Of a DNA stretch of 64,000 nucleotides, positions 17,476-29,031 are shown in pieces. The stretch comes from Halochromatium sp. GTDB lineage: Bacteria > Pseudomonadota > Gammaproteobacteria > Chromatiales > Chromatiaceae. The stretch is from positions 1-64,000 of the forward strand of contig POWB01000011.1 in NCBI GenBank assembly GCA_010912705.1, read 5' to 3'. Position numbers and translations under genes: made by a program. Position 1 is the first letter of the stretch. Each line of letters starts with the position of its first letter. Below the pieces are notes generated by a model, which saw nothing but the letters and a program-made list of their open reading frames with translations, was not told the origin of the DNA and did not search any database.

Positions 17476-20256
17476 TTAATACTCCTCCTCTAAAAAAACC
17501 CAGTATCCAGGATCAAGAGTATCGTCTAAATACGACGGTGGCGTCTGGATGTCATTCATGCTTTGAAACACCTCGCGCATCCGGATGTTCACGCCTTGGC
17601 AGTCTTTCGTGCAAAAATTGCACTTGGAGCAGATCAGTTTGCCGCAAACGTCGCAGGTCTTTTCCCTGCCGAAGACCAATGGATAGTTCAAGCACTTGCC
17701 AATCCACTTTTTATTCTCGTCTAATTTGTCGCCACCGCAATAAGCAACCAATGTCATCCATCTAGATTGGCTATCTTCTCTGGCCAAGAGCAAACCTGAG
17801 TTGGATAGACGAAACTGTGTAAAATCCCGCAAACGCGTGCGATTTCCATGCCGCCAAAGCAAAGTCAGCGTGCTGCATAGACCTTCGACGCGACATAGGG
17901 GATCATAGAGGCCGCACGGATGCGCTGGGTTTTTTACAGGTTTGATAGATCCAGTGTCAATCGATGATTGCTTACCAACATTGCGATCGCGAGTATCAAA
18001 AAGGAGTTCAAGATAATTGGCGGGATCAAATCCTTCTGGAGGGTCGCGCAACGCAGCAAGAAAATCCGTCAAGATCGAGAGGTAGAGCCAAGGGCGGCTC
18101 AAGCGTCCGTCTAGGGCTGCACCCTGTAGGCGCTCAACGACCGCAAGCTGACAAGAAGTCAAGCGATCTCTAAGTTGTCGAGGTAATGGAAAACCAGAGC
18201 GAACAAAGGCTGGTATTGGAGGTATTGTAAGAAATTCCCAAGCTTGATCTGGAGGGTGTCGGCTTTTTTCACTTAGCAACGAAATGTGCTTCTGCTGGGA
18301 TCTGTAGTAGGTAGATGAAAACTCGACTAACCAACTTGGCACAAGGTGTTTTACGTCAACCTCAAAACTGAACTCTGGATTAACAAAGGCTCTCCTTAGA
18401 GCATCAATCTCTTCAAGAACAGTTTCGCCCAGTACACGTATATCAGGAACGCGCCAGTGCAATGGAATATTAGCTGGCTCATTAAGGTATTCAATTTTGA
18501 GGAAGGGTGACAGTACCATTGCCAGACGCACCTCCTTTCCTGCCGCATACTTGTGCTTCACATCGTGGGAAACATAGTAGTCAGAGTCACTTTGACACCG
18601 TGAATTTTTGACATCAACTCGCTCGATGCCATCAAGTTCAATGTCATGCGTTATCCAATCAGTTCCCTTAGAATCGAGTTGTTGTCTTGCTATATCGTGA
18701 ACTTGATAACCTAATCCATGATAAAATAGAGAAACGACTTTTTCTGCGCAACGGGCTGCGAGCATTTTAGCTTCCTCACCCGGGCTCGAAAGCTTCTGCC
18801 AGATCGCTGCGAGTCGCCGATCCTCATTTGTGATATTTTCACCATAGATATCCTGAGGCGCCCAAGACGACCGAGGTAAATTTTCGATATTAATGCTTTT
18901 GTTGAGTGCGTCGATCACATCCTCGTAGCAGTTTTTCCAATAGCGAGCTTTGTAGAAACGTGGCGCAATTTGAAAAAGTGGTTCGGTATGCACAGGCACC
19001 TTAGATTTCCAGAAATGGCGACTTGGAGACTGATGCTCGGATACCTCACCCTCCTGCCCAATCGCTTCCGTGATCTCTGCCAGAAACACGTCGTCATACT
19101 CTAATGCTTCGTAAATAGCGAACCGCTCCTCTAGGGGCAATAATCCGCGCAATTGCACTGCGCCAGGAAACATAACGTATTCGTGACTCAACTGCTTTAC
19201 AGCGTCAACTTTTATAGAAAGATCTAAAATCAAGTTGAGTCTCGAGACGACCTCGCCAAGGAACCTACTAGGGTCGTTGACCTTGTTCCAAATCTCAATC
19301 TGAACTGCCAATGGAGCGCGACTGCGGACACTTTCAAACTGATCTGATGTAATTACTGGGCGTTTCGCTACGTTCATCCAAAAATGGTCAACTGGTTCCT
19401 TTTCGCCTACCTCGCTAGCCTGATCAAGTGCCTCGATCAACTCTTCTATAATTTGGCTCAGATCCTCTATTTCTCCGTACAGCCTAAAGCGATCTTTGAA
19501 GCTGAGAACTGCACGCAGCTCTGTCGCTGCCGGCAAATAAAAAAAGTTTCTATCGAGACCAGGAAACAGTTTTTCAACATCCTTGAGGCGAACCGTCGTT
19601 GAGAATTGATTTTTTCCTCTATAGCAAAAAAATTGAAAGTTTGAGGAGGGAAGTTGTTGACTAGAAGCATCGCCAAGTCCTTTTGATGCCAATAAGCCTA
19701 GAGCATCTTTAAGGTAACTGATAATCTCGGACAGAAAGCAGTTTTTGTCTTGGATGCTGACGGAATTCCATACTTTGATGCGCCGCTTCATAACCGCCGC
19801 GTCGCGCAGGAGTCTTGCCCTTGGGTCGGATAAAACCGCGTCAGGAAGGCAATAGGCCATGCCAGCCTGTTGTATGGGTGTCAATCTACCAAAGAGAGGT
19901 AGGACGAGTTCGAGCATGGTATCACTGTCGACTCGTTTGCTTAAATTAGGTGCTGCAGCACAGGCAGGCTCTGGGTTTTCGATTTCAAAAGCCTGCTTCA
20001 GCAACTCCAGGTCATCCTCATCCTCCAGTAGTAGGACATTGTGCGCGAAAGAAAAATTGTGGCCATCGCAGAGATCGAAAGTAACATACTCACCGTAGCA
20101 GAATGCGGGATCTCGGCGTCTGGAATTTGTGTTGATATCACTCTCGGCAAAACGATACCGACGTCCTTTCATATCGGTGATCTGGCCAGAACGTGGCAAA
20201 CCACAGTTGCGTCTACCGTGCAACTCTAGTCGTGTGAGTTTCCCGAGTCGTCGCAT
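17476..20256 (-). CDS. large uncharacterised protein with probable PD-(D/E)xK nuclease site and Cys-rich tail
   Basis: 926 residues, AT-rich compared with its surroundings. Residues about 23-75 look like a small beta-barrel related to cold-shock domains (SGQITDMKGRRYRF ... VTFDL ... FAHNVLLL). Two copies of a module follow: about 160-295 (KVWNSV, FLSEIISYL, RFRLYGEIEDL, HFW) and about 320-415 (EIWNKV, FLGEVVSRL, RFAIYEALEYD, HFW). Residues about 505-550 (AEKVVSLFYHGLGYQV ... GTDW ... ERVDVKNSR) give a Glu, D533 and D548-x-K550 pattern of a PD-(D/E)xK nuclease. The end carries six cysteines (868, 871, 876, 879, 882, 886), likely a zinc site. I do not know a named family. A defence or nucleic-acid-processing role is inferred from the nuclease site and the island. 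Confidence 0.72.
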   Translation of the reverse strand: MRRLGKLTRLELHGRRNCGLPRSGQITDMKGRRYRFAESDINTNSRRRDPAFCYGEYVTFDLCDGHNFSFAHNVLLLEDEDDLELLKQAFEIENPEPACAAAPNLSKRVDSDTMLELVLPLFGRLTPIQQAGMAYCLPDAVLSDPRARLLRDAAVMKRRIKVWNSVSIQDKNCFLSEIISYLKDALGLLASKGLGDASSQQLPSSNFQFFCYRGKNQFSTTVRLKDVEKLFPGLDRNFFYLPAATELRAVLSFKDRFRLYGEIEDLSQIIEELIEALDQASEVGEKEPVDHFWMNVAKRPVITSDQFESVRSRAPLAVQIEIWNKVNDPSRFLGEVVSRLNLILDLSIKVDAVKQLSHEYVMFPGAVQLRGLLPLEERFAIYEALEYDDVFLAEITEAIGQEGEVSEHQSPSRHFWKSKVPVHTEPLFQIAPRFYKARYWKNCYEDVIDALNKSINIENLPRSSWAPQDIYGENITNEDRRLAAIWQKLSSPGEEAKMLAARCAEKVVSLFYHGLGYQVHDIARQQLDSKGTDWITHDIELDGIERVDVKNSRCQSDSDYYVSHDVKHKYAAGKEVRLAMVLSPFLKIEYLNEPANIPLHWRVPDIRVLGETVLEEIDALRRAFVNPEFSFEVDVKHLVPSWLVEFSSTYYRSQQKHISLLSEKSRHPPDQAWEFLTIPPIPAFVRSGFPLPRQLRDRLTSCQLAVVERLQGAALDGRLSRPWLYLSILTDFLAALRDPPEGFDPANYLELLFDTRDRNVGKQSSIDTGSIKPVKNPAHPCGLYDPLCRVEGLCSTLTLLWRHGNRTRLRDFTQFRLSNSGLLLAREDSQSRWMTLVAYCGGDKLDENKKWIGKCLNYPLVFGREKTCDVCGKLICSKCNFCTKDCQGVNIRMREVFQSMNDIQTPPSYLDDTLDPGYWVFLEEEY

Positions 20257-20296
20257 GATTTTTCTCCGTCGACTAATAATGTCTCAGCTAGTGCGA

Positions 20297-21150
20297 TCAA
20301 CGCAGATCCTGATTAGTAAGCTTGTTTAGCCAGTCAAATCCATCGCTTGGTTCACGTCACGGCCCGGTCGTCTTGCCCGCAAACAGCAGACGGCAGTGAA
20401 TCGTCTTCAGGTTGAAACGTCAGTTGAAGCAATATGCGAAAGCAGCGAGGTAGCGAGTGCGCTATTTCTCGAATTCGAAGGCATGATAGGCCCGCTGAAG
20501 CTTGACTTGAGATAACCCAAGAGCATGGTGATCTAAATGAACAGCAGAATGTACTTCGGTTTGCAAGAGCCAACGACAATGACATGATTCATGCACCTGG
20601 AATCGGTAACACCGGCAAAGGAGGCGAAGCCATAGGAGGTCACCTAGAAGCACGGGGCCAGATCGCGGGTCGCCCAATCGACAATCGCCTTACGGATGGA
20701 GCCCGTTATCAAGGCCATCTGATGAGCAGAGGGTGCCTTCAGAACTCAGAAAGACCGCGGCGACAAAGGGAATCTTGTTCTCCGAGTCGCGTCCGGATGT
20801 GCCTCCAGTGAGTTCTTCGTCGAGATAGACATCGTCGACCTAGAAGTCGCCACTGAGCGCATAAGCACGCTCGCGCTCGGTCATGGCCTGTAGCTTGTGC
20901 TGGATCAGCCAAACGGTGGGATAACTAACGCCCAGCAGACGTTTGAGAGCCAACCAGGACTGCCTGGTTTTGGCCTGACTGATCAGGTAGATGGCCAGAA
21001 AACACACTGTCAGCGCTAATCGGGTGTTCTGAAACAGGTTGCCAGCTATCAGCGAGGGCTGTGTCCGATAGGTCCGGCACTGAAAAGTCTCGTGGGCGTC
21101 GATATGCAGGATAACTGTGCGCCTTTTCTCGGCAAAAAGGGGGCTTGACT
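20297..21150 (-). pseudogene. decayed IS1595-type transposase (ISXO2-like)
   Basis: On the minus strand, RCRTYRTQPSLIAGNLF-like sequence, then YLISQAKT and LGVSYPTVWLIQHKLQAM, are typical of IS1595 transposases. An in-frame TAG at about 20840 interrupts the expected VDDxYLGGE catalytic segment (read as VDDVYLDEE). Later parts appear in other frames: GDPRSGPVLLGD, then QRAYHAFEFEK followed by a stop and RTRYLAAFAY. The first about 45 residues are missing. So the element is 5'-truncated, stopped and frameshifted. It separates the phospholipase-like gene from the 926-residue gene. Confidence 0.8.
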
Positions 21151-21233
21151 GAAGAATCTTGCTAACCAGAATCATATTTAAGGGTGAAACGCTAAAGCCG
21201 TACAGTCGCAATGATATTAAGACATTCTTCGTA

Positions 21234-22199
21234 TCAATTTCCGATGCTCCCTTGGTAGTATATGTCAAAGTAGGAACCACAACCTGAAACATATTGCTTC
21301 CAACGCATTTTGAGCTGTTCACTAGTTAATCGACACAAATCATCTGTCTGCAGACAGAGTTTGCCATTTTGATCTGCAACATCAAGGCCTATCCCAAAAC
21401 TAACACCGCCAAGCAAGGTAAGAACATATCGATTATGAAGCTTCTCACCCTTCTCCCGTTCAACCAGTATCAAGAGATCTATTTTTCGACCTTTTGGCAG
21501 TATTCTGGGTAGTCTCTCCTTGCATTTATTTAGCACAAAATCACCACTCCGACCTTTTCGAGCATCATCACGACTTGCACCTGTTACCAGCTTTGCTAAA
21601 GATGGTCGATCATGACGATTAGGGCTCCAAAGCTTTTCTAACATTAGCTCAAGTGGCCTTATGAATCTCTCTGCACCAGGATCAAAATGCGGATCAACGA
21701 AAACGACCTCCCGACAGCGGGAAAGCAATGGATTGAGAGCCCCTGCAAATTCATCAGCGTTGCGTAGTCGAGGCGAGTTGGATGGTGGAGACCAGGCATC
21801 AGGCGGAGGATGTTCAAATAGCATTTCTTCAGTCATAATCTCAGGCCTACCATCTATCCCTTTGGTCGTTATAATGCCATCGAAAGCTTGATATTCGTGC
21901 TCAGCAAGCACCTTCTCGATCCAAGTAGGAAATGCATCCTGCCGAAGTTCGCGCTCGGCCATCGGACTACATCCAAGATAGTCCAGTACTATTTCTAGCT
22001 GCCTTCTCGCCTGCGATTCAGCCGCGAATCCAGGATATTTTTCGTGGAACGCCTTGATTACTTGTCGCGTCCACTTCCTTGGATAGCGTGAAACAATTCG
22101 CCCGGTATCCTGCCTAAACGCTTCGCGATAAAAAGCCCATTTTTGCCGATCATGCCACTCCGCTACAACAAAAGGATCAAGAGCATATTCACGAATCAT
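21234..22199 (-). CDS. phospholipase D-like protein paired with an AAA ATPase
   Basis: About 321 residues from the ATG at 22199, which I prefer because it starts at MIREYALDP, a natural N-terminus, and overlaps the ATPase stop by 11 bp; an upstream start at 22268 would overlap by 80 bp. The C-terminal half holds EVVFVDPHFDPGAERF and then LHNRYVLTLLGGVSFGIGLDV, which resembles the phospholipase-D-like fold found at the C-terminus of MIT-domain proteins (His followed by G-G-x-x-F-G). The His-x-Lys pair of true PLD enzymes is H-N-R here. Translational coupling suggests that it is the effector or partner of the ATPase. Function is inferred. Confidence 0.68.
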   Translation of the reverse strand: MIREYALDPFVVAEWHDRQKWAFYREAFRQDTGRIVSRYPRKWTRQVIKAFHEKYPGFAAESQARRQLEIVLDYLGCSPMAERELRQDAFPTWIEKVLAEHEYQAFDGIITTKGIDGRPEIMTEEMLFEHPPPDAWSPPSNSPRLRNADEFAGALNPLLSRCREVVFVDPHFDPGAERFIRPLELMLEKLWSPNRHDRPSLAKLVTGASRDDARKGRSGDFVLNKCKERLPRILPKGRKIDLLILVEREKGEKLHNRYVLTLLGGVSFGIGLDVADQNGKLCLQTDDLCRLTSEQLKMRWKQYVSGCGSYFDIYYQGSIGN

Positions 22200-24468
22200 C
22201 GCCGAAAATCTCTCTACCTCTTTCCGGAAAGAACCCCTGTGGCCATGGATCAAGAAATTCTCCATCATCGTCGATTCTTATTTTCTGAATACAGGTGCCA
22301 TTTTCACCTGACTCAACAAAATGCACAGCGATGTCTTCAGGCCTGAGCACGAATCTCTTTTTTTCCTTTCTGTAAGTCACAGACTCCCGTATCCTCCTTA
22401 AACATCGAAGTAATAAATACTCGCTATGCGTTTCAACAAGAAACCAGCGATCATACTCAGCATTTCCTCTTAGCGCCGCATTTGTTTGTGCAGCACCTTG
22501 CATATATACCAAAACAGTTTCCTCTATATCAGGTGCGTCATCGGAAAGATGCGTTTTTATTTCTGCAATTTCGTTTTCGAGCTTTCTCCTAATTTCTTTA
22601 TCCGTCAGCCTTGATACTGCAGTACTGATTAGAAGATCTGCGAGCACAACCTGAAAACCTGGATGCAACTTTGCCTCAGGCTCTTCAATGATGCACAGCC
22701 TTAACCTCTGGACAAATGCAGCAACAATGATGGGCACAATTTGCCGAAGACCTGAACCCACATCGCAAGAAGCAATTCTTGTGCCGGAGTATGTATTACG
22801 CAGATATAGTTGACGTTGAATAGGTGGACTAGATAGTCGCTTGCTCAACAATGAAATGCTTTCCTGATCTGGAAAATTTCCCTTCTTGAACTGCGGAACA
22901 TCCAGGTCATTTAAGTTTACTCCAGCAGTTCGCTCCAACTCCAAGTGATGGTGACTATCAAAGTGTTCTGCCTCGTTAAGCCAAGCATTAACATGTTTAA
23001 TTATGCTGTCGTCACGCGTTGTAAGCCAATCCCATGCTGCACGCCCATTCCACCACTGTGACGAGCCGGGATTCTCCACAGGATCATAACTTCTAGGTGG
23101 TGTTTCGCGTTGTGCGCTCAGGAATGCTGACCTAGAAAGCTCTTCGACTAGCCATGCTCCTGGCGTAATAACGATTTCAGAAAGCAACCTACGCAGATAT
23201 TCGTAACTTTCTTCAGATGCTAATTTGTGTTCGTGATTTTTCTCAATCTTGATGCCAGCGCGTAAGCTCCATGGTATCTCGATCATTTCTGTCCACTTCG
23301 GCAGGGCGGTCTTCGATCCTGAGAAAGAACCCCGGTGCACAACTGGGATAGGATATTGATTTTGGAGCGGAATAAATTGCGTCTTATAGTGGCTAGAAAG
23401 GATGTCCCAGAGCCAACTTGCAAAATACTTATACTCAGTTCCGGCATCAGGCTCAACACACTTGCCCAATCTATTCGTGCTGTCTTTTTTGTTTGTTTTC
23501 TCGTGGGAACCCAAAATTTTTTTTATCTTCTCGAGATATAATTTGGTAATGCTTTTTGGCGAATCATCAGCTTTGCTTGCATCATTAATCTGGATCTTCT
23601 GATCAATTTTGCTCTCATATTCACACTCCATTAGCAAGGGGGCCAAATATTTCATGATATTGCAGGGAAGCAACTGATCCCTCTGTTGCACATCCAGCAA
23701 CCTATTCAAAGTTTTATCATCTAGGCGCTCATTACTCTTAAAGAAAACCGGATTTGCAGCTTTTAATGATTCATATTCTATTATGCTTTCAGACCATAGT
23801 TTATCGACAATTTTGTCGTCTTCTACAGGTTCACCAATTCCTTTATAAGCAAAATCTAGCTCGAGCGAAACTGTACGATTCGACTCAGATTCAGATTCAG
23901 ATTCAGATTCAGATGTTGCAGAAGAAGGAACATAACGTATCGTTGCGTAGGCATTAGAATGATTGCCAACTGCATAGGTGGTGACATAAGGACCAAGTTC
24001 CTCGTGCCAGGCAATCTTAATTTCAACCCAGACATCGGTTCGCTGGATAAGGAACTCACTCGCGGCAACCTTTATTGGATCTTCAGCGGGTCCCCCATGA
24101 GTCCAGTCCGTCTCATCTTCATTAAGTTGATAAACTGGGTCACCTTTAATAAATCGGGGGTAACCATCGCCTTTGAAAAGATGGTTTGTAAGTCTCAATT
24201 CAAAGCGCATACGGATAACACGGTTTCGATCGTGACCATGCACCATGTTAATGAATCCACCAAGATCAACTGCATCGCCGCCTAACTTAGTCTTGCGCAC
24301 ATCGCAGTTATTATGCTCCAGAACCTCGCGAGCGTACATCAATGCGTGAACGATCGTACTCTTTCCGGCGTTGTTCGGTCCAAATAGCAGCGTGATCGGT
24401 GCGAATTCGATTCGGACGGGCTCGCGAATTCCTTTGAAATTTTCCAGAGTCAAAGCTTTGAGTAACAT
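22189..24468 (-). CDS. AAA ATPase of the RecF/OLD-like type with DUF3696-like C-terminus
   Basis: 759 residues, AT-rich. The Walker A motif GPNNAGKS lies at residues 30-37 in the SMC/RecF-like opening LENFKGIREPVRIEFAPITLLFG. The ABC-type signature SGLRQIVPI and Walker B LCIIEEPEAKLHPGFQ come late, followed by ETHSEYLLLRCLRRI and the DUF3696-like end DDDGEFLDPWPQGFF. There is no TOPRIM domain as in OLD nucleases, so the nuclease or effector part is probably the overlapping downstream gene. Such ATPases occur in many phage-defence modules. Residues about 184-196 are an (SE)n stretch from a hexamer repeat. The start is 55 bp behind the PcfJ gene stop on the same strand. Confidence 0.85.
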   Translation of the reverse strand: MLLKALTLENFKGIREPVRIEFAPITLLFGPNNAGKSTIVHALMYAREVLEHNNCDVRKTKLGGDAVDLGGFINMVHGHDRNRVIRMRFELRLTNHLFKGDGYPRFIKGDPVYQLNEDETDWTHGGPAEDPIKVAASEFLIQRTDVWVEIKIAWHEELGPYVTTYAVGNHSNAYATIRYVPSSATSESESESESESNRTVSLELDFAYKGIGEPVEDDKIVDKLWSESIIEYESLKAANPVFFKSNERLDDKTLNRLLDVQQRDQLLPCNIMKYLAPLLMECEYESKIDQKIQINDASKADDSPKSITKLYLEKIKKILGSHEKTNKKDSTNRLGKCVEPDAGTEYKYFASWLWDILSSHYKTQFIPLQNQYPIPVVHRGSFSGSKTALPKWTEMIEIPWSLRAGIKIEKNHEHKLASEESYEYLRRLLSEIVITPGAWLVEELSRSAFLSAQRETPPRSYDPVENPGSSQWWNGRAAWDWLTTRDDSIIKHVNAWLNEAEHFDSHHHLELERTAGVNLNDLDVPQFKKGNFPDQESISLLSKRLSSPPIQRQLYLRNTYSGTRIASCDVGSGLRQIVPIIVAAFVQRLRLCIIEEPEAKLHPGFQVVLADLLISTAVSRLTDKEIRRKLENEIAEIKTHLSDDAPDIEETVLVYMQGAAQTNAALRGNAEYDRWFLVETHSEYLLLRCLRRIRESVTYRKEKKRFVLRPEDIAVHFVESGENGTCIQKIRIDDDGEFLDPWPQGFFPERGREIFGDDS
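23885..23914 (-). repeat. hexanucleotide repeat (TCAGAT) x5, in frame
   Basis: Five exact TCAGAT units on the plus strand, encoding alternating Ser-Glu in the ATPase on the minus strand. The same kind of repeat is found in the GC-rich native genes, so this acquired gene has been resident long enough to gain one, or gained it elsewhere. Confidence 0.9.
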
Positions 24469-24523
24469 TAAGATTCCTATTAATTCGCTTTTGTTGGCGT
24501 GTTAGTGACGACTTCAGAGAAGG

Positions 24524-26377
24524 CTACGCTGCATTCGCGGGATCAGATTGCTTCGCATCAATTCTTGGTTTTAGTAGGAACTGATTGAGCAGGTATTTGC
24601 CTTCAAGGAACCGAGCAACACTGCTGCGGCGCGCCTCCCGCGGATACGTAAATGCAAGCATCTCCGCCAACCTCTGCTGTTCCTGTGCCGTCAGCTCTGA
24701 CTCTTGTGAATCTGGCGTATCGAGCCGGTGTATAACAGGCGCTCCAGCACAACGTCGCGCATCACGAACCGCTGCGATGCGTTGAATCGGGGTTGGCTCC
24801 ATAACCCGTCTCACGAAGCGTTCCGCAACAGCCTGCAATGCGGGCTCAGGTGTTTGGTTACCTTGGGCATAGTGCTTCACCAACAGGGGTCTGCCACGGC
24901 GAAGGTCGACCTCGAAGGTCGACAATATCTTGCCGGTCGCTCGCTCTCGGATCGAGAACAGCGCACTGTCTCCGGTCAGACACTTCACGGCATAGCTGGC
25001 GACACAGTGCTCCTGCTCGCGCCCTTCTAACTCCAGCGCCTGGTGGCTAGTCAACTCGATGACCCTATAGTTGCCGTGACTGTGATCTGCCGCTCCCCCG
25101 ACAACTGGAAGCCAGTCCAAGCTAGCAGCCTCCTCTGCGCCACGGAGGCCCAACCGCTCCAAACTGAACTGCCGATAGGCATCGCGCCACTGCAAAGCCA
25201 TTTGCGCTAGGCGCCGCAAGCCGACTTGGCCAAACCAGGCTGCAAAGAAAGCCAGCGGGGGATCTTCCGCAACCGCAGCGAGCTGCCCACGCTTCGCCAA
25301 CTCAGCCTTCAACGCTGGATAGACACTATAGCGATAGGTCGCACGGGCAAATGCGTAGATGACATCGAAATCCAGCCCTGCGCCTAACTTGTCGGCTAAC
25401 GCTCGTTGACCCTGCTCCCAGCCCTGGGCAAACGGCGCTGCGAGCTCAAGCACATCGCGTTGAAGTACGCACGCGAGATCGACTAGCGGCTGCCAAAGCG
25501 CCTGGAAGACGCGATGGTCGTCATCAGTCTTCGGCAGATAGTCGGCCGGCAGCTGATCGAGCTGGCGCAGCAGCGTGCTGTGATGATCCTGACCGATCCG
25601 CGCGGGCTCGAAATAACGACAATGCTGGATCGTGCGCGGGCTAATCTGATGGACCTCGGCAAGTGTGCGCAACAGCGGCACACCCCGGTCAACCTCTCGA
25701 CGCAGCCGCCAATCGTCACGCAGTGCCTGGCTGAAGAATGGGAAACTATGCGCTGCCTGAAGTCGGTTGCGATGAGGGTTGCCCACAGCGTCCAGATAGA
25801 AGTTATAGGTTGCCCAATCGCCATGACCTTCACGTCGCAGGATGGCCAGGGTGTCAGCGTTCAAGCCCTTGGAAAACGCATCAATAGCGGTGTGCAGAAT
25901 GGCATGCTCGACCCGCGCTAGGACGCCGAGCGCGGTGGCTTGATGGGTCGATACAGAAGCTCCGCCCTGTGCCTGAGTTCTGAGCACACGTGCAGCAAGG
26001 GATTTGGCTAAAGCGCCCATCCAGTCGGAGTCAGGCTCAAGCACAGGCTTGCCGTGCAACACCACTCCGCCCACCTGAGTTGGACTGCAACAACGATCTT
26101 GTCCATACAGGAAGAGTTTTCGGTTGGGTTGCTCAACCAGCCACAGCGATTGCTGCTTTCCCAGCGCATCCGCGTCTCCAACCGGAGATCCGAGGTTGAT
26201 CAGAAGTGCTTGGCGCACGCCGGGAATACCTCTGTTTCGATACAAGCAAGCGCGATACTCGCGCAGCAACCCACTCCGGAACAATCGGCGAAGCAGCGCT
26301 GCGGCCGCCTGGTTGGTGGAATCATCACCGATTATCCGATGCGTCCAATGCGGAAAAACGTCGCCTTGCTGATACAT
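24524..26377 (-). CDS. PcfJ-domain protein under a sigma-54 promoter
   Basis: A 617-residue protein. The PcfJ-like core lies at about residues 440-535: HQALELEGREQEHCVASYAVKCLTGD, ALFSIRERATGKILSTFEVDL, then VKHYAQGNQTPEPALQAVAERFV. The Glu-x-x-x-x-HCVxxY motif is the hallmark of this family, named after a protein of plasmid pCF10; its activity is unknown. The first 400 residues are helical with no recognised domain. GC content is like the host genes, unlike the ATPase downstream. A -24/-12 promoter ends about 35 bp before the ATG, directly behind the gene for an RtcR-like activator, so expression probably depends on that protein. Confidence 0.78.
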   Translation of the reverse strand: MYQQGDVFPHWTHRIIGDDSTNQAAAALLRRLFRSGLLREYRACLYRNRGIPGVRQALLINLGSPVGDADALGKQQSLWLVEQPNRKLFLYGQDRCCSPTQVGGVVLHGKPVLEPDSDWMGALAKSLAARVLRTQAQGGASVSTHQATALGVLARVEHAILHTAIDAFSKGLNADTLAILRREGHGDWATYNFYLDAVGNPHRNRLQAAHSFPFFSQALRDDWRLRREVDRGVPLLRTLAEVHQISPRTIQHCRYFEPARIGQDHHSTLLRQLDQLPADYLPKTDDDHRVFQALWQPLVDLACVLQRDVLELAAPFAQGWEQGQRALADKLGAGLDFDVIYAFARATYRYSVYPALKAELAKRGQLAAVAEDPPLAFFAAWFGQVGLRRLAQMALQWRDAYRQFSLERLGLRGAEEAASLDWLPVVGGAADHSHGNYRVIELTSHQALELEGREQEHCVASYAVKCLTGDSALFSIRERATGKILSTFEVDLRRGRPLLVKHYAQGNQTPEPALQAVAERFVRRVMEPTPIQRIAAVRDARRCAGAPVIHRLDTPDSQESELTAQEQQRLAEMLAFTYPREARRSSVARFLEGKYLLNQFLLKPRIDAKQSDPANAA

Positions 26378-26411
26378 CCTACGCCCATGTTGCTTGCTGT
26401 CGAGCAGACAT

Positions 26412-26428
26412 GAGCAGGGACCGTGCCA
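26412..26428 (-). promoter_or_regulatory. sigma-54 (RpoN) -24/-12 promoter for the PcfJ gene
   Basis: The minus strand reads TGGCACGGTCCCTGCTC. The -24 element TGGCACG is perfect, and GG and GC are separated by exactly 10 bases as RpoN requires; the -12 element CTGCT differs from TTGCW by one base. Transcription would start near 26402, 25 bp upstream of the ATG. It touches the stop codon of the sigma-54 activator gene. Binding sites for the activator would have to lie inside the activator gene. Confidence 0.85.
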
Positions 26429-27940
26429 TCATGGCTTGAGGTCATATTTTTTGAGCCAGTTTGTTAGCGTCGTGGGATTTCCGAAGCCGAGCAGCTGGGC
26501 AGCGCGGGTCTTATTGCCCTGCGCTACCGCTAAGGCACGTTCCAGATAATGCCGCTTAACATCATCGAGAATCTTTTCTAGATCAAAGTCTTCACACATT
26601 TCTCGACCGAGGATTGAGAGGCTACCATCAGCACTTTGGGGCCCTGGCAGCAGCGCATCGCGCGCGTCATCGAGATCGATCGTCGGGCCTGGTGTCCAAA
26701 CTGCCGCACGGCGCAGCGTGTTCAGCAGTTCACGGATATTGCCGGGCCAAGCGTGCTCAAGCAAAAGTTTTCTTGCAGTGACCGAAAGTTTCTTTGGCTC
26801 ATAGCCGGGCTCGGTCTCGCTCTCGCAGTTAACCTGATCCAGAAGACGATCCAGCAGTAAGGCGACATCACCATCGCGCTCACGGAGTGGTGGCAGGACG
26901 ATGACCGCAACGGCTAGACGATAGAACAGGTCTTCGCGGAAACGACTGCTGCTGACCTCTTGGCTGAGGCTGCGATTGGTCGCGGCGATGATGCGGACAT
27001 CGACACGGATGGATCGGGTCGCTCCAACGCGAGTGATCTCGCCTTCCTGAAGCGCACGCAGAAAACGCACCTGGGCAGGCTTGGGTAGCTCGCCGATTTC
27101 ATCCAAGAACAGCGTTCCGGTATCGGCCGCCTCGAAGACGCCTTGGCGAGCGCTGATCGCCCCGGTGAAGGCGCCTTTTTCATGTCCGAACAACTCGGAT
27201 TCGATCAGATCCGGGGCGATAGCACCGCAGTTGAGGGTGACCATAGGTCGGTCGCAGCGCGGGCTAGCCTGGTGGATGGCTCGCGCGAGAAGTTCTTTAC
27301 CGGTGCCAGATTCACCCTCGATCAAAACCGGTATCGAGCGCAGCGCAACCCGGCGGGCACGGGCAACGACGCGCTGCATCAGCGCGCTCCGATGGATGAT
27401 CGCATCGAAGGCTGGCGCCGCAGGCGGAAGACCAGCGGTCATACGTGTCAGTTCGTCATCCGATCGGCGCAGCAGATCCGGAATGAAATCAGCGGCCATC
27501 TGAAATGGGATCGAGACGGAGCGCACCCCATATCGAATCGATGACTCGATCAACTCAGCGGGAAAGCGAGTCTTGGCGAGGATGATCCAGACTGCGGCCA
27601 TCGCTGGCGTGCCTGGGCTGAGGTGAAAGGTCAGCTCAGGCGGGCTGGATCGGGCCTTGATCGTCTCAGCAACGATGCGACGGGCTTCCCGATAGATGGC
27701 GTCGAAGTTAGTGGGGCTGTCCAGCTCGACCGAGTGCACTGTGACGGGCGTCTGGTTACGCTGCCCAAGCCAATCGAGATAGGCCTGCGCTTCAGTGGCG
27801 CTGTAGTCGCAGATCAGCGCCAGGTGGCTGAACCGACTCGTGTCTAGGGCTTGCGCGACTGGACCAGTGCCCACCCAGTCGGCTTCCTCAATGGCGCGGA
27901 GATCAGTGCGACCGAGCCAGCTGAAAAGGAGTCTGTCCAT
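26429..27940 (-). CDS. RtcR-like (CARF-type) sigma-54-dependent activator
   Basis: About 503 residues from the ATG at 27940 (a TTG at 27967 would add nine). The N-terminal about 165 residues form a Rossmann-like sensor (FSHLALICDYSA ... VHSVELDSPTNFDAIY ... LTFHLSPGTPAMAAVWIILAKTRFPAELIESS) similar to the CARF-type domain of RtcR and NE0113 proteins, which bind RNA ends or cyclic oligonucleotides. The AAA+ domain has GESGTGKE, GAFTGA (contacts sigma-54), GTLFLDEIGEL and the sensor region RVDVRIIAATNRSL. The C-terminal HTH reads NKTRAAQLLGFGNPTTLTNWLKKYDL. There is no phosphoreceiver domain, so a ligand is the likely signal. The predicted target is the RpoN promoter right behind it. Confidence 0.88.
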   Translation of the reverse strand: MDRLLFSWLGRTDLRAIEEADWVGTGPVAQALDTSRFSHLALICDYSATEAQAYLDWLGQRNQTPVTVHSVELDSPTNFDAIYREARRIVAETIKARSSPPELTFHLSPGTPAMAAVWIILAKTRFPAELIESSIRYGVRSVSIPFQMAADFIPDLLRRSDDELTRMTAGLPPAAPAFDAIIHRSALMQRVVARARRVALRSIPVLIEGESGTGKELLARAIHQASPRCDRPMVTLNCGAIAPDLIESELFGHEKGAFTGAISARQGVFEAADTGTLFLDEIGELPKPAQVRFLRALQEGEITRVGATRSIRVDVRIIAATNRSLSQEVSSSRFREDLFYRLAVAVIVLPPLRERDGDVALLLDRLLDQVNCESETEPGYEPKKLSVTARKLLLEHAWPGNIRELLNTLRRAAVWTPGPTIDLDDARDALLPGPQSADGSLSILGREMCEDFDLEKILDDVKRHYLERALAVAQGNKTRAAQLLGFGNPTTLTNWLKKYDLKP

Positions 27941-28115
27941 CAGAGTCTCGTTAGCATCTCTAAGCACAGGATGAGAGCAACGGCCAAACCGTCAAACAAG
28001 CCATGGTCTGGGTGCTTAACTGATTGATGACCGATGGCCTGGTAGCGCGATATTGTGGACCTATTCCTACACCCAAGTCTCCCCAACCATAGGGCTCGAT
28101 CAGCGAGGCCGCTCG

Positions 28116-28553
28116 ATGCCAGAGGACGCAAGATCCGCCGACATTCGTTGGCAACAACGCCTAAGCAACTATCTGCGCGCACTGGCACAACTCGAAGAGG
28201 CCGTGCAGTTGCGCAACCAGCGGCCGCTCTCGCGTCTGGAGCAGCAAGGGTTGATCAAAGCCTTTGAATTCACCCAAGAGCTGGGCTGGAATCTGATGAA
28301 GGATTACTTTGAATATCAAGGCAATCCAAACATCACGGGCTCTCGCGATGCGATCCGCGAAGCCTTCAAGCACGGCCTGATCCATGACGGGGATGGCTGG
28401 ATGGCAACCATCCGCAGTCGTAACCTCTCGGCACATACTTACGATGAGACCCGCGCTGATCAGCTGACGCAGATCATCGCCGAGCGCTATCTGGCGTTGT
28501 TCAAGACCTTTGCCGAGCTTATGCAGGCCCTGATGGCCAGCCAAGATGACTGA
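28116..28553 (+). CDS. HEPN-type protein of a HEPN-MNT pair (HI0074-like)
   Basis: About 145 residues from the ATG at 28116. An all-helical nucleotidyltransferase-substrate-binding-like protein: RWQQRLSNYLRALAQLEEAV, KAFEFTQELGWNLMKDYFEYQG, then RSRNLSAHTYDE, which carries the R-x4-H motif of HEPN RNases. In studied HEPN-MNT systems the HEPN protein is a toxin RNase that its MNT partner silences by nucleotidylation. The gene overlaps the MNT gene by 8 bp. It is divergent from the sigma-54 activator, with 175 bp between starts. I found no GG-N10-GC site on its side. Confidence 0.85.
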   Translation: MPEDARSADIRWQQRLSNYLRALAQLEEAVQLRNQRPLSRLEQQGLIKAFEFTQELGWNLMKDYFEYQGNPNITGSRDAIREAFKHGLIHDGDGWMATIRSRNLSAHTYDETRADQLTQIIAERYLALFKTFAELMQALMASQDD

Positions 28554-28863
28554 TCAGCAACCGTTCGGATTAGCACCGGGCGTCGTTGCCCAGCTCCGCA
28601 ACCAGCTCGCCCGCACCCCAGGTCTGCAACGTGCAGTCATCTTTGGATCACGCGCCAAGGGCGATTTTCGACAAGGCTCGGATATCGACATCGCGCTCTT
28701 CGGCCCAAAGCTGACCGAAACGGATCTTGCGGCCCTGGAAGGCCGAATCGACGACTTGCTGCTACCCTATCAGATCGATCTCTGCCAGGTTGAATCGGTT
28801 GAGAATGTGGCTTTACTCGCGCACATCGAGCGCGTCGGCCAACAGCTCTACCCGGCATCCTGA
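28546..28863 (+). CDS. minimal nucleotidyltransferase (MNT) of the HEPN-MNT pair
   Basis: A 105-residue protein with the polymerase-beta-type signature AVIFGSRAKGDFRQGSDIDIALFG, whose two aspartates bind metal, and a later Asp in QIDLCQVESV. It is of the HI0073 type. Its likely role is transfer of AMP (or another NMP) from NTP to the HEPN partner, which neutralises it. The start codon overlaps the end of the HEPN gene (ATGACTGA), implying coupled translation. Confidence 0.88.
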   Translation: MTDQQPFGLAPGVVAQLRNQLARTPGLQRAVIFGSRAKGDFRQGSDIDIALFGPKLTETDLAALEGRIDDLLLPYQIDLCQVESVENVALLAHIERVGQQLYPAS

Positions 28864-29031
28864 GTGGTTCGCTAGCATTACCGCGACCATCGCCTTCCCG
28901 CTCACTTTTGCCTTTGCCTGCACCTTAGGACATGCCGACATCCTCGAGATAACCTGACTGCCCTACTGCGACACGGCTGCTAGAATGGCGCTATGTTTGC
29001 CTAGCCCGGCCGCAAGGCCCCAGCCCTCCTG

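Follow-up and report, generated by a model that had tools for sequence, protein, structure and literature searches.

A CARF-like sigma-54 activator of the RtcR_PspF2 family and a candidate RpoN promoter abutting its stop codon precede a PcfJ gene in Halochromatium sp.

In the purple sulfur bacterium Halochromatium sp. (assembly GCA_010912705.1), a stretch of 64,000 nt (contig POWB01000011.1, positions 1 to 64,000, hereafter the window) carries a gene for a sigma-54 activator with a CARF-like sensor, followed directly by a -24/-12 (RpoN) promoter site that faces a gene for a PcfJ-domain protein. We consider it probable that this locus is a ligand-triggered, RpoN-dependent defence-type operon built on an activator–promoter cassette (coordinates in Table 1). 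The activator gene closes with a TGA codon (26431–26429), and the promoter site, TGGCACGGTCCCTGCT, begins at 26428, the first base after the stop. RpoN promoters follow the consensus TGGCACRNNNNTTGCW, with GG and GC elements at a set distance; TGGCACGGTCCCTGCT departs from this consensus by one mismatch, carries GG (26427/26426) and GC (26415/26414) at the expected spacing and is separated by 35 bases from the PcfJ start codon at 26377, and a transcript would be expected to start near 26402. The window as a whole held two sites with at most one mismatch against 1.43 expected by chance, so that a single -24/-12 match means nothing by itself, and what makes the promoter credible is its kept placement across related loci. 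Among the 48 activator loci classified, the window included, 47 had sequence after the stop (L086 had none that was usable). With GG and GC fixed and up to 3 mismatches allowed, a site started exactly at the first base after the stop in 20 of these 47 loci and within 20 nt of it in 26; the loci are related and hence do not represent 47 independent events. The background rate in the same loci, both strands counted, was 604 sites in 1,397,000 positions (4.3e-4 per position). The activator tree has 47 rows, and all 20 loci with a first-base site sit within a single part of 25 rows that takes in two sister clades and several families; the site persists behind the activator although the stop codon (TGA, TAG or TAA) and the cargo vary. 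A first-pass annotation of this DNA had described a near-perfect site next to the activator stop and facing the PcfJ gene, and had proposed looking for it in other genomes; the description was borne out and the site does recur.

A Pfam domain scan covered seven proteins of the locus (17476–28863), activator and PcfJ included. The open reading frame of the activator (27967–26429, minus strand) is joined by the alignment of its relatives at about an internal ATG at 27940, which is likely the start codon and is the end coordinate given in the first-pass annotation. A CARF-like sensor (about 27413–27940) precedes a sigma-54 AAA+ domain with its lid (residues 190–446) and a Fis-type helix-turn-helix (residues 467–508), the latter two matched by Sigma54_activat (E 1.4e-68) and HTH_8 (E 5e-7), and the GAFTGA and SPGTPAM motifs are present in the translation, in agreement with the domain layout first proposed from the sequence. 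The N-terminus matched the Pfam families RtcR (E 0.01) and Csm6-CARF (E 0.009) weakly, both under the cut-offs. The PADLOC model RtcR_PspF2 CARF_AAA_HTH (PDLC01995) covered residues 12–510 of 512 (E 1.9e-196), compared with E 1.3e-71 for PspF1 and 8.8e-59 for RtcR, and the protein missed the cut-off of the NCBIfam RtcR equivalog (NF038308) with 335 bits versus 650. By these matches the activator is a member of the known RtcR_PspF2 family and not RtcR itself, so that its earlier description as RtcR-like stands as to the RtcR and RpoN type and is narrowed as to the family. A profile of the sensor, built from four activators that match it by construction, was searched at E<=1e-8 against 210 genomes from the same order and a sample of 398 from the phylum, and matched 30 and 23 of them, respectively, the window's own genome being counted in both. 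Activator places with truncated or short frames (L095, L096, L107, L123), the broken G344 copy and weak or partial matches (L054, L072–L076) were excluded.

The gene facing the promoter belongs to the PcfJ family, as annotated at first: PF14284 matched residues 433–512 with 37.5 bits (gathering cut-off 25; profile positions 62–141 of 147). Relatives were found in 9 of the 210 genomes of the order, own genome included (10 places at E<=1e-5, 8 of them long), and in 2 of 200 genomes of the phylum, one of which is the window's own. A scan of genome contigs confirmed six PcfJ loci from 40 candidate stretches, in Lamprobacter modestohalophilus (listed in the same genus as the window's genome), Allochromatium palmeri (two), a Thiohalocapsa metagenome-assembled genome (MAG) and two further MAGs, while in viral contigs none of 20 pattern matches was confirmed as a PcfJ relative. 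The sample of PcfJ loci is small and comes nearly all from one family; the Thiohalocapsa locus (L021/L131) was kept in every PcfJ count.

Four of the eight long PcfJ places carry the activator, namely those of the window, L. modestohalophilus, A. palmeri and Thiohalocapsa. Compared with the window, L. modestohalophilus (L015/L126) has 96% identity in the activator, 89% in PcfJ and an identical promoter, and A. palmeri (L016/L127) has 70% and 45%, with the promoter TGGCATGGGTTTCGCT starting at the same base. The order activator–promoter–PcfJ is identical in these three genomes, and the pairing that the first-pass annotation had suggested seeking elsewhere thus recurs, in inverted form also in Thiohalocapsa. 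The other four places form a sister branch without the activator, and three of them have CRISPR genes nearby, one with a full type III-B system; the contig of the fourth (L019, 3.9 kb) is too short to show its setting. In a tree of the eight different PcfJ sequences, one branch (support 96/97) splits the activator-linked from the CRISPR-linked sequences, with the L019 row on the CRISPR side. The PcfJ gene on A. tepidum pAt1 (L013:10001–11887) belongs to a type III-B locus, where csx16 and csm6 flank it; the plasmid also has cas10 and cmr genes. On the short MAG contig L017 it stands beside a CARF5/Csx1-type gene, and the second A. palmeri copy (L020) is near Cas1 (and, by eye, Cas2).

Behind the related activators, the genes fall into groups: type I restriction-modification (R-M) systems, a DUF3696 ATPase, PcfJ and others. 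Two representatives of the R-M group matched REase_I (E 2.5e-258) and MTase_I (E 3e-174), and plasmid examples came from Azotobacter (in pieces), Pseudomonas luteola and Vitreoscilla. Behind seven related activators whose loci lack PcfJ (L079–L084 and L087), the first large gene encodes a DUF3696/OLD-like ATPase, the BLAST segments covering the protein partly and small open reading frames intervening in some loci, and it is placed after R-M genes in L108, L112 and L118. On a Rhodoferax plasmid, a relative of the activator is followed by genes annotated as vWA, PP2C, kinase and AAA; L101–L105 hold genes similar to this set in size and order (compared without alignment), with a kinase-type PADLOC match in L103 and no promoter behind the activator stop. 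On the activator tree, which has several long branches flagged as unsure, the four cargo labels need 6 changes compared with a mean of 15.7 after shuffling, and PcfJ and DUF3696 cargoes interleave in one 15-row clade. The main evidence for exchange of cargo is the alignment of the window with L. modestohalophilus DNA, in which 92% identity extends to 24596, inside the 3' end of PcfJ, and different genes follow, the DUF3696 ATPase in the window and a reverse transcriptase (RT) in L. modestohalophilus. Comparison of the loci supports the view that activator and promoter form a conserved portable cassette whose downstream genes have been exchanged in evolution. The first-pass annotation had named the PcfJ gene as the target; the activator is indeed placed to drive it, but related loci carry other cargoes, and in the window the DUF3696 ATPase gene is probably part of the unit as well.

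In each of the three relatives with the activator–PcfJ pair (L015, L016 and L021), the locus further encodes a YADD-motif reverse transcriptase (RVT_1, E 1.3e-19 to 7.8e-22), which is fused to a HisKin-conflict-like domain (above the cut-off in L016 only). The next protein has a receiver-like domain (E 0.0011 to 4.5e-6, under the cut-off in all three). A TOTE-type helicase comes next in L016, and the homologue of that helicase in L021. A profile built from the three RTs, which match it by construction, gave near-full-length matches in those three only among the 204 genomes searched, and no match in the window's genome (89.8% complete). The RT modules share a leader with a CCCATG...CATGGG hairpin, for which Rfam offered no known family, the search of L015, L016 and L021 returning only a tRNA at E<=0.1. 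A -24/-12 site before the RT has one mismatch in L021, is weak in L016 (GG and GC present, 4 mismatches) and is absent from L015. NCBIfam retron models matched the RT part in L016 below their cut-offs. From these features the RT module of the relatives may be retron-like and under RpoN control. We rejected a retron at the window's own locus, as no RT domain was found in the scanned locus proteins and no match of the relatives' RT in the 89.8% complete genome.

PcfJ consists of an N-terminal alpha/beta part, a helical middle and the C-terminal PcfJ domain (about residues 430–545), and among its invariant residues are HCV..Y and, around the final strand and the final core helix, H502, N507 and P510. 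AlphaFold models computed from seven sequences reached pLDDT 79 and pTM 0.60 for the full-length protein, and pLDDT 76 and pTM 0.69 for residues 368–548. The modelled core has the order beta-alpha-alpha-beta-beta-beta-alpha, which we take to be that of the first half of the GNAT fold. Foldseek with the domain model gave acetyltransferase or GNAT labels in 34 of the best 50 of 750 rows (E<=10), with a best E of 0.013 (probability 0.99) and none at E<=0.001 among the matches listed; the full-length model likewise gave no match at E<=0.001 and performed more weakly than the domain, and the PcfJ sequence profile had 0 matches in the PDB. The model thus provides a lead, not a finding, that the conserved domain is GNAT-like, the likeness lacking statistical significance, and it would be a guess that this domain is a transferase acting on RNA or on a component of translation.

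Under the reading that we prefer, a ligand would be bound by the CARF-like sensor, the activator would oligomerise and its GAFTGA loop would open the RpoN polymerase at the promoter behind its own stop codon; an RpoN domain is encoded in the host genome. The architecture of the stop-abutting promoter is evident from the sequence, and its action is what we infer from it. The transcript from near 26402 would carry PcfJ and would probably extend through the genes for the DUF3696 ATPase and the 344-aa protein, judging from spacing and strand: the ATPase gene starts 55 bases behind PcfJ on the same strand, and the operon probably runs from PcfJ into it (24468–22189). PcfJ would be one effector or accessory protein of the cargo group, and the operon would have a role in defence. 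A Cas10-type domain is encoded elsewhere in the genome, so that cyclic oligoadenylate is a possible signal. More broadly, and doubtfully, two CARF-signalled immune arms of Chromatiaceae might have PcfJ in common as an effector or adaptor. In one branch, PcfJ would be switched on by the CARF/RpoN activator, together either with a retron-like RT/histidine-kinase/receiver module equipped with an RpoN promoter and a leader RNA of its own or, as in the window, with the DUF3696 ATPase, and the sister branch would act inside type III CRISPR systems; the stop-abutting promoter would be a moving 'plug-in' switch for defence genes, and the PcfJ core a GNAT-like transferase.

Other explanations were weighed against the same data. 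PcfJ could be a passenger inserted between the promoter and its real target, the DUF3696 ATPase or, in relatives, the RT module. This idea fits the seven loci that lack PcfJ and have a DUF3696-type homologue first among the large genes, and also the Thiohalocapsa locus L021, where PcfJ points the opposite way and the better promoter (one mismatch) faces the RT; yet PcfJ is open and first in three genomes at 45–89% identity, and the CRISPR genes near three of the four sister-branch loci suggest a role of its own, which makes a passenger unlikely. It is quite unlikely that the activator governs RNA repair or another housekeeping stress response with PcfJ as an RNA-repair accessory. RtcR is the best-studied relative, the sensor is weakly similar to it and RtcB genes are present in the genome, but the RtcB matches are elsewhere in the assembly (contigs C10 and C39), RtcA, RtcB and Ro-type domains are absent from the seven scanned locus proteins, the activator falls short of the RtcR equivalog cut-off and a good part of the cargo of its relatives is of defence type. 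The second RtcB match in the window's genome (C39:1176–2051) is in two pieces. Finally, the -24/-12 match could be fortuitous or a relic, with PcfJ read from another promoter; while a single match in 64 kb is no more than chance would give and L085 and L078 have no site at the corresponding place, the recurrence at the exact base in 20 of 47 loci, all in the 25-row tree part with its several families, renders this very improbable.

Several observations weigh against the defence-operon reading. The activator–PcfJ pair was found in only four loci, all of one bacterial family, one of which is the Thiohalocapsa locus with its inverted PcfJ, its poorer site behind the activator (3 mismatches) and its better promoter before the RT. 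The first-base site is absent in 27 of 47 activator loci, including ones in which the next genes are inverted (L090–L092, L094, L098, L119), and on the activator tree the loci with PcfJ do not group together clearly (56 of 500 shuffles were as low). No shared motif that could serve as an enhancer site for the activator emerged from synonymous-site conservation in 18 activator genes or from inverted repeats upstream of 27 promoter/activator-stop regions. The similarity of the sensor to RtcR is weak (E 0.01), so that the ligand may differ from that of RtcR, the extent of the operon is judged from strand and spacing alone, and the host assembly is 89.8% complete in 43 contigs.

Table 1. Features of the activator–PcfJ locus and of the RT modules in related loci.
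Feature	Coordinates	Strand	Basis
Activator, RtcR_PspF2 family, 512 aa	26429..27967	-	Pfam, PADLOC PDLC01995, relatives' alignment
Candidate -24/-12 (RpoN) promoter TGGCACGGTCCCTGCT	26413..26428	-	sequence; placement across related loci
PcfJ-domain protein, 617 aa	24524..26377	-	PF14284, alignments, AlphaFold models
DUF3696/OLD-like AAA ATPase	22189..24468	-	Pfam AAA_15 and DUF3696; neighbourhoods
344-aa protein	21234..22268	-	recurs alongside DUF3696 ATPase
RT/histidine-kinase-like/receiver-like module	L016:5394-8600; L021:5290-8225; L015:11558-16243		

The open reading frame of the 344-aa protein overlaps that of the DUF3696 ATPase, and its start may be internal. At the limits applied, none of Pfam, PADLOC, NCBIfam and PHROGs gave it a family, and its homologues adjoin the DUF3696 ATPase in L083, L087, L089, L092, L098, L112 and L118. 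The PHROGs search gave two weak matches, to families without assigned function. Downstream of the 344-aa gene, a fragment at 20840–21322 resembles an IS1595-type transposase by eye, and a 926-aa protein (17476–20256) had no match in the same four databases at the limits used. Divergent from the activator lies a HEPN/MNT-type toxin-antitoxin pair (28053–28863; NTase_sub_bind and Polbeta in Pfam), which is included in the DNA aligned to L. modestohalophilus (24596–28864).

If these readings hold, the uncharacterised PcfJ domain is tied to two settings of defence type that also feature CARF proteins, and a sensor-activator carrying its promoter as one unit would account for the control of different defence genes by a single inducible switch. 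The name PcfJ derives from the Enterococcus plasmid pCF10, where the genetic setting differs; the likeness to that protein is the PF14284 domain. Retrons I-C, XI and XII of PADLOC resemble only the cargo of the relatives, in the RT with YADD and the conserved leader hairpin, and differ from it in that the relatives' RT is joined to a HisKin-conflict-like domain and a receiver-like partner, several of these matches being below the cut-off. In the literature searched, which did not cover the 2020 CARF classification, no paper joined RtcR and PcfJ, and none, judged from titles and the beginnings of abstracts, dealt with the function of PcfJ.

With RtcR of the rtcBA RNA-repair operon, as presented in Hughes et al. 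2020 (PMC7790460), the activator shares the sigma-54 activator build with a sensor that may likewise be a divergent CARF domain; it does not stand beside rtcBA, and RtcR proper was rejected on the equivalog score and on the lack of rtcB and rtcA in the seven scanned proteins. RtcR homologues head large CoCoNuT defence superoperons according to the passages on them in a 2024 study (PMC11090510), and an RtcR homologue heading co-directional defence genes is the likeness to our locus; the word PcfJ is absent from the main text of that study, and a CoCoNuT was rejected since the seven locus proteins had no Pfam match to a McrB-type GTPase, a McrC-type protein or a coiled-coil nuclease. The closest likeness is to the non-rtc RtcR-like regulators (RtcR_PspF2, PDLC01995) treated in passages of Makarova et al. 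2014 (PMC4012209), with which the activator shares the CARF-AAA-HTH architecture, a full-length model match and adjoining defence genes. According to those passages, R-M systems often accompany the RtcR-like proteins that have no link to Rtc, and a positive residue present in other CARF domains is missing from most of the RtcR family. Our locus differs from these regulators in its PcfJ cargo, the word PcfJ being absent from the main text of that paper, and in the stop-abutting promoter, of which its relevant passages make no mention. The first-pass annotation had taken the module to be of an undescribed kind, a claim that we do not uphold: PADLOC already models the family, and papers of 2014 and 2024 reported activators like RtcR next to defence genes. 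As far as the literature searched shows, what appears to be new is the PcfJ cargo of a known RtcR_PspF2-type regulator.

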